This document shows positions 2 through 4,777 of a stretch of 33,139 nt of DNA, in pieces. Made by a program: the position numbers and the translations under genes. How positions within the stretch are numbered: position 1 is the first letter of the stretch; each line of letters begins with the position of its first letter. The notes under the pieces were generated by a model. It saw only the letters and a program-made list of their open reading frames with translations. It did not search any database and had not been told where the DNA came from. Origin of the DNA: Pseudomonadota bacterium (GTDB lineage Bacteria; Pseudomonadota; Alphaproteobacteria; ATCC43930; CGMCC-115725); assembly GCA_021812165.1 (NCBI GenBank), contig JAKAOO010000009.1, positions 1-33,139 on the forward strand. The letters run 5' to 3'.

Positions 2-445
2 GATCTCTTCCTTCTCTTCTGCGACGATCTTTCCTTCGAAGCCGAAAACACGAGCTACAAGTCTTTGAAGGCGGCGCTCGAAGGCGGCATCGAGGGAAGG
101 CCGGCAAACGTCCTCTTTTATGCGACCTCGAATCGCCGCCATTTGATGCCGCGCGAGATGATCGAGAACGAACGGGCGACCGCGATCAATCCGGGTGAAG
201 CCGTCGAAGAGCGCGTCTCGCTTTCCGACCGCTTCGGGCTTTGGCTCGGCTTTCACGCCCTCGACCAGGAGACCTATCACGCGATCGTCGAGGGCTATGC
301 CGCCCATTACGGCCTCGAAATGGGCGAAGAGGAACTCCTCGCTCGCGCCAACGAATGGTCGATCACCCGCGGATCGCGCTCGGGCCGGGTCGCCTGGCAA
401 TTCATCCAGGATCTCGCCGGAAGGCTCGGCAAGACCCTCACCTGA
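2..445 (+). CDS. DUF815-family AAA ATPase, C-terminal part (5' truncated by window edge)
   Basis: Open frame from base 2: DLFLLFCDDLSFEAENTSYKSLKAALEGGIEGRPANVLFYATSNRRHLMPREM... matches the DUF815 ATPase pattern; stop at 445. Confidence 0.85.
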   Translation, partial: DLFLLFCDDLSFEAENTSYKSLKAALEGGIEGRPANVLFYATSNRRHLMPREMIENERATAINPGEAVEERVSLSDRFGLWLGFHALDQETYHAIVEGYAAHYGLEMGEEELLARANEWSITRGSRSGRVAWQFIQDLAGRLGKTLT

Positions 446-541
446 CCCCGCGTTCCGCCCCGGTTGAGGCGCGAAGAGATGGCCGCGGTCGACCGCGGCG
501 CAAAGCCTTGTTAACTTCGACGCACAAAGACCGCGGCGAAC

Positions 542-580
542 GGTTACGGTGGGTTAGGGTTACGGGGTTACGGGTTACGG
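542..580. repeat. Degenerate short tandem repeat GGGTTA/GGGTTAC with G-quadruplex pattern
   Basis: ggttacggtgggttagggttacggggttacgggttacgg; four G-runs (551-553, 557-559, 564-567, 572-574) separated by TTA/TTAC. Confidence 0.8.
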
Positions 581-699
581 TGACAGTGCATTTAACTGAC
601 ATGCCTTCGGAGTCGTGAGCGTCGCGGCGATGTCTTACTTACTCACCAGTCTGTGATATAGGCTATAGTGGGAGCCCGGAAGAATGAGCGAACGAGGGC

Positions 700-835
700 G
701 GGTGTCCGTTTGATGGCGGCGAGCTGGGCGTCGATCTTTTCGCGCAGCTTCTCGCCCTCGCGCACCCGCTCCATCGCCATCAGCCGAATCGCTTCCAGCG
801 TGCGGTGGTCAAAACCGCGTCCATCTCGCTGCATC
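700..835 (-). pseudogene. IS630-like transposase N-terminal fragment
   Basis: Minus-strand frame reads MQRDGRGFDHRTLEAIRLMAMERVREGEKL..., resembling the N-terminal helix-turn-helix start of IS630-type transposases; the recognisable part is short and no catalytic domain follows. Confidence 0.6.
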
Positions 836-1232
836 CCAAATCGTCCCCCAGAACGAACCGCCTGCCAACCCAAATGTAGCCTCACTTCACGACTGCTGAG
901 TAATAAGCGACATCTCCCCCGGTAGACGTGACGCTCATCATCCGGCAAAGGTGGCCGCATACGCTGTCTGCCGATGCTACCGGTTATGACGATACGATCT
1001 GGATGCCGTGCCTGAGATATGAGGACAACAATTTCGATTGGTAGCCGACCGCGGAACGCCCGTGCGCGCAAGCGAGCGGCGTATCTGACATAGGAGGACA
1101 AGAATGCTTCCGGGCGACCGGGAAGACGAAATCGGTCGCGCGTTGCTTCCTGGCAGACCCTGGAGGGACGGCGCCCGGCTGCCCCCCCAAACTGATGTCC
1201 CGACCGCGAAGTCCGTGACATAAATCCGCGGT

Positions 1233-1383
1233 GTCATTGCGACCCCCGGACGGCCGCCCTCTCGGGCGTTCCGGGGGGAAGCATTCTCGCACTCGATGGT
1301 CTTGGGATTGCCCGAGATCGCTTCGTCGCGCAGTTTATCCTCGGGCCGCGCGAAGCGCGGACCCGCGGGCTCCTCGCAATGAC
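1233..1383. repeat. Dispersed MITE/REP-like element with 10-bp inverted termini GTCATTGCGA...TCGCAATGAC
   Basis: Perfect terminal inverted repeats at 1233-1242 and 1374-1383; internal hairpin gggccgcgcgaagcgcggaccc. Confidence 0.7.
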
Positions 1384-1477
1384 GGGAAATACTGCTGCGA
1401 ATTTGCGGCTCAGGACGCTGACAGCTTGTTGAAAAACTCTCGGAAGGGCTCGAAGCGGCCGGCAGCAGCCCGGTAAT

Positions 1478-1560
1478 CGTCATTCCCGCGAAAGCGGGAA
1501 TCGAGCGGGCCGAACGCCTTCCGGGTTCCGGCTCTCCGCTTCGCTGCGGCCGTAATGACG
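1478..1560. repeat. Dispersed REP-like element (CGTCATTCCCGCGAAAGCGGGAATC...AATGACG)
   Basis: CGTCATT/AATGACG inverted ends and internal hairpin attcccgcgaaagcgggaat, a common bacterial intergenic repeat form. Confidence 0.75.
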
Positions 1561-1603
1561 GAATTCGGTCTCTGCGGGGCTTTTCCGTCATCCTCCTAAG
1601 AGA

Positions 1604-2416
1604 CTAATGAACCCGTTCCGCGGAGGGCTCGTGCCGGTGGGCGTCGCGCTCGACCGGATGGCCGCCGGACATGACGAAAATGCGCCCCCTGATCGGCACC
1701 ACCTCGATCTCGGCTCCGTAGAGCCGCGACAGGACCGGACCCGTGACGACCTCCTCGACCGTCCCGAGGGCCGCCTGCCCGCGCCCCAGATAAAGCACGC
1801 GGTCGATCGCGCCGAGCAGAGGGTTGAGTTCATGGGCGGAGAAAAGCACGGTGATTTGAAGCTCGCGCCGAAGCGATCGCACGAGCGCGACGACTTCGCT
1901 CTCGTGGCGCGGGTCGAGGCTGATGAGCGGCTCGTCCAAAAGGAGAAGGCGCGGCTCCCCGATCAGCGCCTGGGCGAGAAGCAAACGCTGCCGCTCACCG
2001 CCCGAGATCTCGGCAAGAGGGCGCCGGGAGAGTTCGCGCGCGCCCACAAGTTCGAGAACGCGATCGACTTCCGCCCGCCCTCTCGCGCCGGCGATCGGCA
2101 GGCCGAGGCGATGGCCGTTATAGACGCTCGCGATGAAATCCGAGCCCCTGAGCCGCATGCCGGCGATGTCGCCGCGGACCTGCGGCATGTAGCCGATTGC
2201 GGGGTTGCCGCGCGTCGCCGGGCGCCCGAGAACGTGGATCCTCCCCCGGCTCGGCGGCACCAGCCCCAGGACGGCGCGCATCAGAGTGGTTTTGCCGGAG
2301 CCGTTCGGCCCGAGAACGCCGATAAATTCACCCGCGGCGATGCGCAAATCCACCTCCGAGAGGATGACGCGACTGCCGAGGGAAAGCGAGGCATCGCGGA
2401 ATTCTATGGCATTCAT
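1604..2416 (-). CDS. znuC: Metal (zinc/manganese-type) ABC transporter ATP-binding protein
   Basis: Walker A GPNGSGKT, signature ISGGERQ, Walker B LLLLDEP; adjacent to a ZnuA-type binding protein gene. Confidence 0.85.
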   Translation of the reverse strand: MNAIEFRDASLSLGSRVILSEVDLRIAAGEFIGVLGPNGSGKTTLMRAVLGLVPPSRGRIHVLGRPATRGNPAIGYMPQVRGDIAGMRLRGSDFIASVYNGHRLGLPIAGARGRAEVDRVLELVGARELSRRPLAEISGGERQRLLLAQALIGEPRLLLLDEPLISLDPRHESEVVALVRSLRRELQITVLFSAHELNPLLGAIDRVLYLGRGQAALGTVEEVVTGPVLSRLYGAEIEVVPIRGRIFVMSGGHPVERDAHRHEPSAERVH

Positions 2417-2422
2417 GGGCGC

Positions 2423-3298
2423 TTATGTCGCTAGCGCGCGATCGACCGCATCGAGTTCTCTCACCATCCAACCCTGGTAATTCTCGCCCGGAGGTTCGGT
2501 CTCCGTGACGCCCACCACAGGGATGTGGGAAGCCTCGGCGAGCCTCACCATGCGCCGGGCGACCGGGCCCGAGACCTGGCTGTTATAAACGAGCATTCGC
2601 ACCCGATGCATCCTCAGATCCGTCTCGAAGGCCGCGACCTCGGAGGCGCCCGGCTCGGTGTTGTTCATCATCGCGAGCTGAAAGCCCCGGTTTTCGACCC
2701 GCATCCCGAGCGCCTCGAACATGGCGCCGAAAACCGGTTCCGTCGCCGTCACGGGCGTGCCGGAAAGGCGCGCGCGCAACGCCGCGACCCTGGCCTCGAT
2801 CGGTTTCATCGATTGCTCGAACCGCGCGAGGCGCGCCTCATATAACGCCCGGTGCGCCGGGTCGGCTTTTTCGAGAGCGGTCGCGAACGCTTTCGCAAAG
2901 GCCGGCATCGTCTTCGGATCGTACCAGATGTGCGGGTTGTCGCCGGGCTTTGCGCCAACGAGATCGGCGACGGCGATCGCCTTGCGGTTCGAGCCCCTCG
3001 CCGCCCCGAGCAACCTTTTCATCCAAGGATCGTAGCCGATGCCGTTATAAACGACGAGGCGCGCGGCGGAGACGGCGCGCGCCACGGAAGGGCTTGCTTC
3101 GAAGAGGTGCGGATCTTGGTCGGGGTTTTTGAGGATGCTCGTCACCTTCACCTCGGGCCCGCCGATCTGCTGCGCCACATCGCCGTAGAAATTCTCGGCG
3201 GCAACGACGATGATGCGCGGCGCGGCGGAAGCAGGCGCCGGAGCGAACAGGATAGCGGCAGCCGCCAGGACGAGGAGCAACTTCAACCCGAACCCCAC
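2423..3298 (-). CDS. znuA: Metal ABC transporter substrate-binding protein (ZnuA-like)
   Basis: Signal peptide LKLLLVLAAAAILFAPAPASA then IIVVAAENFYGDVAQQIGG...DPHLFEASPS...NPHIWYDPKTM. GTG start chosen at 3298; the 809-aa ORF call extends spuriously over the divergent gene. Confidence 0.85.
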   Translation of the reverse strand: MGFGLKLLLVLAAAAILFAPAPASAAPRIIVVAAENFYGDVAQQIGGPEVKVTSILKNPDQDPHLFEASPSVARAVSAARLVVYNGIGYDPWMKRLLGAARGSNRKAIAVADLVGAKPGDNPHIWYDPKTMPAFAKAFATALEKADPAHRALYEARLARFEQSMKPIEARVAALRARLSGTPVTATEPVFGAMFEALGMRVENRGFQLAMMNNTEPGASEVAAFETDLRMHRVRMLVYNSQVSGPVARRMVRLAEASHIPVVGVTETEPPGENYQGWMVRELDAVDRALAT

Positions 3299-3330
3299 CC
3301 CACCGATGTGGCGGCCAGCAAGGGATTGTC

Positions 3331-3348
3331 GATACGATATAACGTATC
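3331..3348. promoter_or_regulatory. Zur-like palindromic operator GATACG-ATATAA-CGTATC
   Basis: Perfect 6-bp arms with an AT-rich centre in the divergent intergenic region between znuA-like and porin genes. Confidence 0.55.
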
Positions 3349-3418
3349 CTCTCCCTCGCTTCGCCGCCACCCCGCTCGGCCGGCGCCGGCGATAAAGGGA
3401 AAGACGCGGGAACGTAGG

Positions 3419-4777
3419 GTGCGCGAGCTTCGGCCCCTGCCGCGCTTCCTGGCGGCCGCCGCGTTCCTGCTCTCGGCCGTGCCGGCGCTCGCGCAAACCG
3501 CTCCCGCCGAGCAATGGCAGCGACGGAACCTCTTGGGCGACATTGGAGGCCTGCGCACGATCCTCGCGGAATACGGCGCTCGTCTCGATCTCTCCGAGAC
3601 GAGCGAAGTCTTCGGCAACCTGACGGGCGGCGTCCATCGCGGTTTCGAATATGCGGGGCTCACCAGGATGGCGCTCACGCTCGACACCGCGAAAGCCTTC
3701 GGCTGGAGCGGCGGCACCTTTTATGCCAGGGCGCTGCAGATCCATGGCCGCAATCTCTCCGCCGATAATCTCGCCGTCCTGCAGACGATCAGCAACATCG
3801 ACGCCGACCGGTCCACTCGCCTCTGGGATCTCTGGTACGAGCAGAAGCTGCCGCGCCTCAATCTCGATTTCACGATCGGCCAGGAGAACGTCGATCACGA
3901 CTTTATCGTCAGCAAATATGCCGGCCTCTTCATCGACGCGATGAACGGCTGGCCGGCGCTTCCCTCGAACGACCTCTATGCGGGAGGACCGGTTTACCCT
4001 CTTTCCTCCCCCGGCGTTCTCCTCAAGGGCAAGCCGGCAAAGGCCCTCACCGTTCTCGCCGGCGTCTTCGACGACAATCCGCCGGGCGGCCCGTTTTTCG
4101 ATGATTCCCAGCTGCGCGACGGCGAAGCGTCGGGGACGCGGTTCAATCTCGGGACGGGCGCGCTCATCCTCGCCGAGGTCCAATACCATGGAAAGATCCT
4201 GCCTTTTACGGGCGCGTCGCTTCCCGGCACCTACAAGCTCGGCGCCTGGATCGATACCGGGCGCTTTCCCGATCAGCGCTTCGACACCTCCGGGCTCTCG
4301 CTCGCCGCGCCGGGGAGCACCGGCGTCCCGCGCTTCCACCACGGCGACTTCAGCATCTACGGCGTCATCGACCAGAAGGTGTGGCGATCGCTCGGCGCCT
4401 TTCTGCGCGTCATGGGCGCGCCCGCCGATCGCAATCTCGTCGATTGGAGCCTCAACGCCGGGCTCGATCTCAAAGCCCCGCTGCCGGGGCGCAAGGACGA
4501 CTCTTTCGGTATCGCCTATGGCTGGGCGCATGTGAGCGGGCAGGCGAGCGCTCTCGACCGGGACGTCGCGATTTTCACCGGAAGGAGCTTTCCGATCCGC
4601 AGCGCCGAGCACATCGTTGAAATCACCTACGTCTACAGCCTTGCGCCGTGGTGGCAGCTGCAACCGGATCTGCAATACGTCGTCAACCCGGGAGGGGGCA
4701 TCCCGAACCCGCAGGACCCGCCGCAGCGCATCGGCAACGAACTCGTCGTCGGGCTCCGGACGACCCTCACCTTTTGA
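3419..4777 (+). CDS. OprB-like carbohydrate porin
   Basis: Signal peptide FLAAAAFLLSAVPALAQ then LLGDIGGLRTILAEYGARLDLSETSEVFGNLTGG..., terminal aromatic residue F (...LRTTLTF). GTG start 3419 inferred. Confidence 0.8.
   Translation: MRELRPLPRFLAAAAFLLSAVPALAQTAPAEQWQRRNLLGDIGGLRTILAEYGARLDLSETSEVFGNLTGGVHRGFEYAGLTRMALTLDTAKAFGWSGGTFYARALQIHGRNLSADNLAVLQTISNIDADRSTRLWDLWYEQKLPRLNLDFTIGQENVDHDFIVSKYAGLFIDAMNGWPALPSNDLYAGGPVYPLSSPGVLLKGKPAKALTVLAGVFDDNPPGGPFFDDSQLRDGEASGTRFNLGTGALILAEVQYHGKILPFTGASLPGTYKLGAWIDTGRFPDQRFDTSGLSLAAPGSTGVPRFHHGDFSIYGVIDQKVWRSLGAFLRVMGAPADRNLVDWSLNAGLDLKAPLPGRKDDSFGIAYGWAHVSGQASALDRDVAIFTGRSFPIRSAEHIVEITYVYSLAPWWQLQPDLQYVVNPGGGIPNPQDPPQRIGNELVVGLRTTLTF

Follow-up and report, generated by a model that had tools for sequence, protein, structure and literature searches.

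Little is known, as far as we are aware, of how zinc crosses the outer membrane where no TonB-dependent receptor takes it up. The annotation of OprB proteins routinely describes them as carbohydrate-selective. The locus described here raises the question of whether an OprB-family porin is controlled by Zur together with a zinc importer and serves as a route for zinc. The window, meaning the whole stretch of DNA that was analyzed (33,139 nucleotides), is the entire contig C32 of a 3.66-Mb genome assembled in 312 contigs. It contains a divergent regulatory region of 120 bp (3299-3418, no strand), flanked by a znuA-like gene (minus strand) and a gene for an OprB-family porin (plus strand). The first-pass annotation placed a Zur-like palindrome at 3331-3348 in this spacer and proposed that it controls both genes. 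The spacer was confirmed by the Pfam assignments of the flanking genes (ZnuA, 3.8e-50; OprB, 6.2e-91), and the palindrome lies where it was placed, with 8/9 of its base pairs complementary.

The porin gene (3419-4777, plus strand, GTG start) encodes a 452-aa OprB-family outer-membrane porin, predicted to act as a zinc-starvation pore, with a Sec-type signal peptide, MRELRPLPRFLAAAAFLLSAVPALAQ, read from the translation of 3419-3496 (plus strand) and ending at a putative cleavage site. The match to Pfam OprB (PF04966) covers profile positions 2-372 of 372. On the other side of the spacer, the znuA-like gene for a zinc ABC transporter substrate-binding protein (2423-3298, minus strand) starts at GTG 3298 or TTG 3286 and is followed by a znuC-like ABC transporter ATPase gene (1604-2416, minus strand; Pfam ABC_tran, 7.5e-27), which in relatives is contiguous with znuA and znuB. 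In this genome znuB lies outside the window; the sole ABC-3 permease gene found is on contig C189, and the ZnuABC set is complete with the substrate-binding protein and ATPase in the window and the permease on C189. The znuB gene, which adjoins znuC in relatives, has moved to another contig. The flanks of both znu pieces (window 445-1604; L006:1-1003) are for the most part non-coding and in places resemble repeats; a short G/T-rich repeat of ggttacgg-type units is present to the left of znuC at 541-590 of the window. NCBIfam models were ambiguous as to the metal of ZnuA (Zn or Mn), with scores below cut-off; zinc specificity of the ZnuABC system is suggested by the Zur box.

A Zur-like Fur-family gene, L006:1804-2286(-), adjoins znuB on C189 in convergent orientation. 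The best NCBIfam model for its product is Zur (111 bits, below the cut-off of 167), and among solved structures the product is closest to 7dh7, a Fur-family regulator, and to 4mtd, the Zur of E. coli. The protein retains three residues of the latter, Tyr45, Asp49 and Arg52, which contact the central TATA and join the two dimers (PMC4219657).

The predicted operator, GATACGATATAACGTATC (3331-3348, no strand), is an 18-bp inverted repeat of the dimer-of-dimers type. Palindromicity by itself was rejected as evidence, since 18-bp palindromes with at least 8/9 pairs occur 12 times in the window versus 12.8 expected from shuffles; the expected count in a 120-bp region is ~0.04. The Zur character of the box was instead read from its cores. 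The plus-strand 13-bp core, GATATAACGTATC (3336-3348), overlaps a second core on the minus strand, GTTATATCGTATC (3331-3343), at a 5-bp offset, and both fit the form RNNNYxxxRNNNY and the pattern GWTATAWCRTAWC and thus carry a proteobacterial Zur core of the GTTA-N5-TAAC type, with outer letters GATA/TATC instead of the strict GTTA/TAAC on the plus strand. Only two perfect matches to GWTATAWCRTAWC were found in the 3.66-Mb genome, one per strand and 5 bp apart, and both lie within the palindrome. The reversed control pattern gave six matches at no more than one mismatch genome-wide. A search for another Zur site elsewhere in the genome yielded just two one-mismatch GWTATAWCRTAWC sites, which is the level of the control pattern, and the idea was rejected. 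Against the structural Zur motif RNNNYRNNRYNNYRNNNY, the box agrees at 8/8 constrained positions. This 18-bp motif describes the znu operator of E. coli, at which Zur binds as two dimers to overlapping sites of the form RNNNYxxxRNNNY (PMC4219657); the box in the window has the same layout. No sigma-70 consensus promoter and no terminator was detected in 3299-3418, so that any overlap of the box with the start sites is putative, a point counted against joint control of the two genes.

Further scoring was obtained with a matrix trained on nine znuA promoters, none with an adjoining porin. The window box scored 18.2 (empirical p ~5e-4 per 320-bp upstream region), which is the lowest score in the true set and was counted against joint control of the two genes. 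The description of the palindrome as Zur-like therefore held against both motif and matrix, but it is not one simple site and consists rather of the two overlapping boxes. The box upstream of znuA is conserved, as most znuA promoters of the family have one of the same kind; none was found in four relatives (L039, L049, L050, L051) or before the relocated znuB. Taken on these sequence grounds, the palindrome is a genuine predicted Zur operator, far from a chance occurrence.

When 108 sequences upstream of porin relatives were scored with the same matrix, the distribution was bimodal. Seven distinct porins divergent to znuA scored 18.2-30.2, and two further porins scored 24.6 (L150) and 23.7 (L103); all other regions scored below 14, with a shuffle 99% quantile of 13.5. 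Beside the window, divergent znuA/oprB pairs with a box occur in six further lineages (L072, L073, L078, L085, L107, L116), which are MAGs labelled Alphaproteobacteria, Rhodospirillales, Acetobacteraceae, unclassified Proteobacteria and Desulfocapsaceae. The core GATATAACGTATC is common to these six regions, and in 6/6 of them the best segment in common with the window lies on the box, with only some segment lengths exceeding the shuffled best. Lack of conservation of the palindrome had been named in the first-pass annotation as a result that would speak against it; the box was found to be kept with the divergent pair in six lineages and before oprB in L150 and L103. Many porin relatives do not have a Zur box, which was counted against joint control, and order-wide and class-wide porin searches gave no further znuA-linked porins among the matches listed. 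The MAG labelled Desulfocapsaceae (L073) has an oprB gene divergent to a group made up of znuA, znuC, znuB and a zur-like gene, and its porin and Znu proteins are 57-72% identical to those of the window genome, as would be seen after transfer across phyla or with a misbinned contig.

Porin relatives were also found beside a different kind of importer. At least 44 of 101 adjoin an iron-type island containing an Fbp-like ABC importer, OprB, an NHL-type propeller and EfeB, a deferrochelatase/peroxidase; such context counts are lower bounds because flank lengths differ among loci. The island is conserved in L079, L083, L084, L092, L110, L129 and others, and a Fur-like box frequently precedes its OprB gene. 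Its importer presumably carries iron, with NCBIfam models not decisive and several proteins matching best to aminoethylphosphonate transporters. Zur boxes precede 7/7 zinc-linked porins and 1/40 iron-linked porins, and Fur-box matches (at least 13/19) precede 17/40 iron-linked and 0/7 zinc-linked porins, with 1.3% in shuffles. One genome (G027) contains one paralogue in zinc context and one in iron context. The Zur-linked porins do not form one clade, and at least 3-4 changes between zinc and iron context are needed. A single clade of Zur-linked porins was disfavoured (AU p 0.025), a value that is only a guide because the tree was built quickly and membership of the zinc group was set by gene context after the first tree was drawn. 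A tentative reading, to which we give somewhat less than an even chance, is that members of this OprB subfamily act as general metal pores of the outer membrane, the metal depending on the regulator and importer to which they are docked, and that the subfamily was repeatedly exchanged between the Fur-controlled iron island (Fbp-like ABC importer, NHL propeller, EfeB) and the Zur-controlled znu operon. Such exchange would mean that the pore was put to use for different metals with no change beyond its operator and neighbours.

One alternative concerns the nature of the substrate. The porin could be Zur-controlled and yet pass a sugar, an organic acid or a zinc chelate rather than free zinc, the link to zinc being physiological. 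The fold agrees with this, in that the structure model (pLDDT 78.7) has its best PDB match in OprB of P. putida (4gey; TM 0.79/0.85). Family and fold are common to the two proteins, whereas their identity in the structural match is 24% and the P. putida protein is a carbohydrate porin; we know of no link of that protein to Zur. A metal-ligand signature in the Zur-linked porins was also considered and rejected, as no His/Cys/acidic signature separating them from iron-linked porins was found, and its absence likewise suits a substrate other than free zinc. With an OprB fold and no residue signature of the zinc-linked members, nothing in the sequence shows selectivity. However, the relatives in iron-uptake islands (Fbp-like ABC importer, EfeB, EfeU) point to metals, and passage of a zinc chelate would still amount to a zinc route. 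Gene context thus argues against carbohydrate selectivity of the window porin, and this alternative was judged unlikely.

Alternatively, the box could be the Zur operator of znuA alone, with the porin a divergent bystander transcribed from its own promoter. The box at 3331-3348 lies only ~32 bp from znuA, as against 70 bp from the porin, and many znuA genes of the family have a Zur box with no porin seen adjoining. In L078 the porin starts ~280 bp from the box, which may there serve znuA alone. Against this reading, boxes were found before the porin at loci where znuA was not seen, between efeB and oprB in L150 (1214-1327) and between efeU and oprB in L103 (1331-1439), so that the porin itself is the predicted Zur target; L107 has two boxes, one close to each gene; and the divergent pair recurs in porins that, by the AU result above, are not of one clade. 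Control of znuA alone was considered improbable on this evidence. The position of the L150 and L103 boxes in an efe iron neighbourhood could also couple iron and zinc control. That the palindrome arose by chance, or serves a different member of the Fur family (Fur, Irr or Mur), is highly improbable. The genome does encode two Fur-family proteins besides the Zur-like one, and palindromes of like quality are common in the window, but the box matches the structural Zur motif as well as the matrix from znuA promoters; a Fur box in the divergent region was rejected as a match at background, Fur-box matches preceding 17/40 iron-linked porins against 0/7 zinc-linked ones.

Shared Zur control of znuA and the porin, as proposed in the first pass, gained support from comparison of sequences, namely from conservation of the box, from boxes before porins without a visible znuA and from the Zur-like protein in the genome. 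Predicted regulation of the porin by Zur is well supported in this respect, and repression is its presumed direction. We regard it as probable that the palindrome is a bidirectional Zur operator for znuAC and the OprB porin, that both are released in zinc starvation, and that the porin provides a zinc route.

Related arrangements have been described for other metals and other porins. FeoP of Acidithiobacillus is an OprB-family porin of feoPABC with a Fur box and predicted Fur control (PMC2631029, PMC2621215), and Geobacter sulfurreducens has an OprB gene before feoAB with predicted Fur control (PMC545781). Both resemble the window in combining an OprB-family porin, an inner-membrane metal importer and a metal-responsive Fur-family box, but they involve iron, FeoB and Fur instead of zinc, ZnuABC and Zur, and FeoP is likened here by description and not by sequence. 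MspD of M. smegmatis is accessory to ZnuABC, and its induction follows zinc starvation or loss of zur by deletion (PMC13098993). Like the predicted window porin it is an outer-membrane porin tied to Zur and ZnuABC, and it was counted as a precedent for a Zur-controlled porin, although it is of the mycobacterial MspA type, from another kind of outer membrane, and the window porin is an OprB. Zur-regulated TonB-dependent zinc receptors, as in Caulobacter (PMC4176598) and of the ZnuD type, are likewise the outer-membrane part of a Zur regulon, but are energised where the window porin would be passive. Links to divalent metals by phenotype or expression, comparable to that of the window porin, are known for MnoP (manganese) and RopAe (copper), which are linked to metals without Zur and not described as OprB (PMC6011978), and for OprB-type porins of Anabaena, whose genes were not found under Zur (PMC9705863). 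A review lists an OprD porin as Zur-regulated (PMC6103462). A full-text search of the open-licence literature found no published OprB under Zur. In that literature the known Zur-regulated outer-membrane proteins are TonB-dependent receptors, an OprD porin and MspD, to which an OprB under Zur would add.

Under the favoured reading of a bidirectional operator, zinc-loaded Zur, probably in the form of two dimers that sit on the overlapping 13-bp boxes, would occupy the palindrome when zinc is sufficient and would block transcription both leftward (znuAC) and rightward (the porin). Zinc starvation would derepress znuAC and the porin together; the porin would then act as a passive outer-membrane route for hydrated zinc or a small zinc complex, which ZnuA and the ABC importer would take from the periplasm. 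Zinc passage through the porin is suggested by its context, and would be compatible with a pore that has no selectivity or a weak preference for cations and is simply produced under zinc scarcity, by analogy with MspD of M. smegmatis. Given a predicted Zur operator that appears real and a pairing of box and porin that recurs in distant bacteria, the porin is probably a zinc-starvation pore and not a sugar channel. A Zur-controlled OprB would constitute a concrete and testable passive route for zinc, and it suggests that an entire branch of "carbohydrate porins" may be misnamed and have a role in metal uptake.
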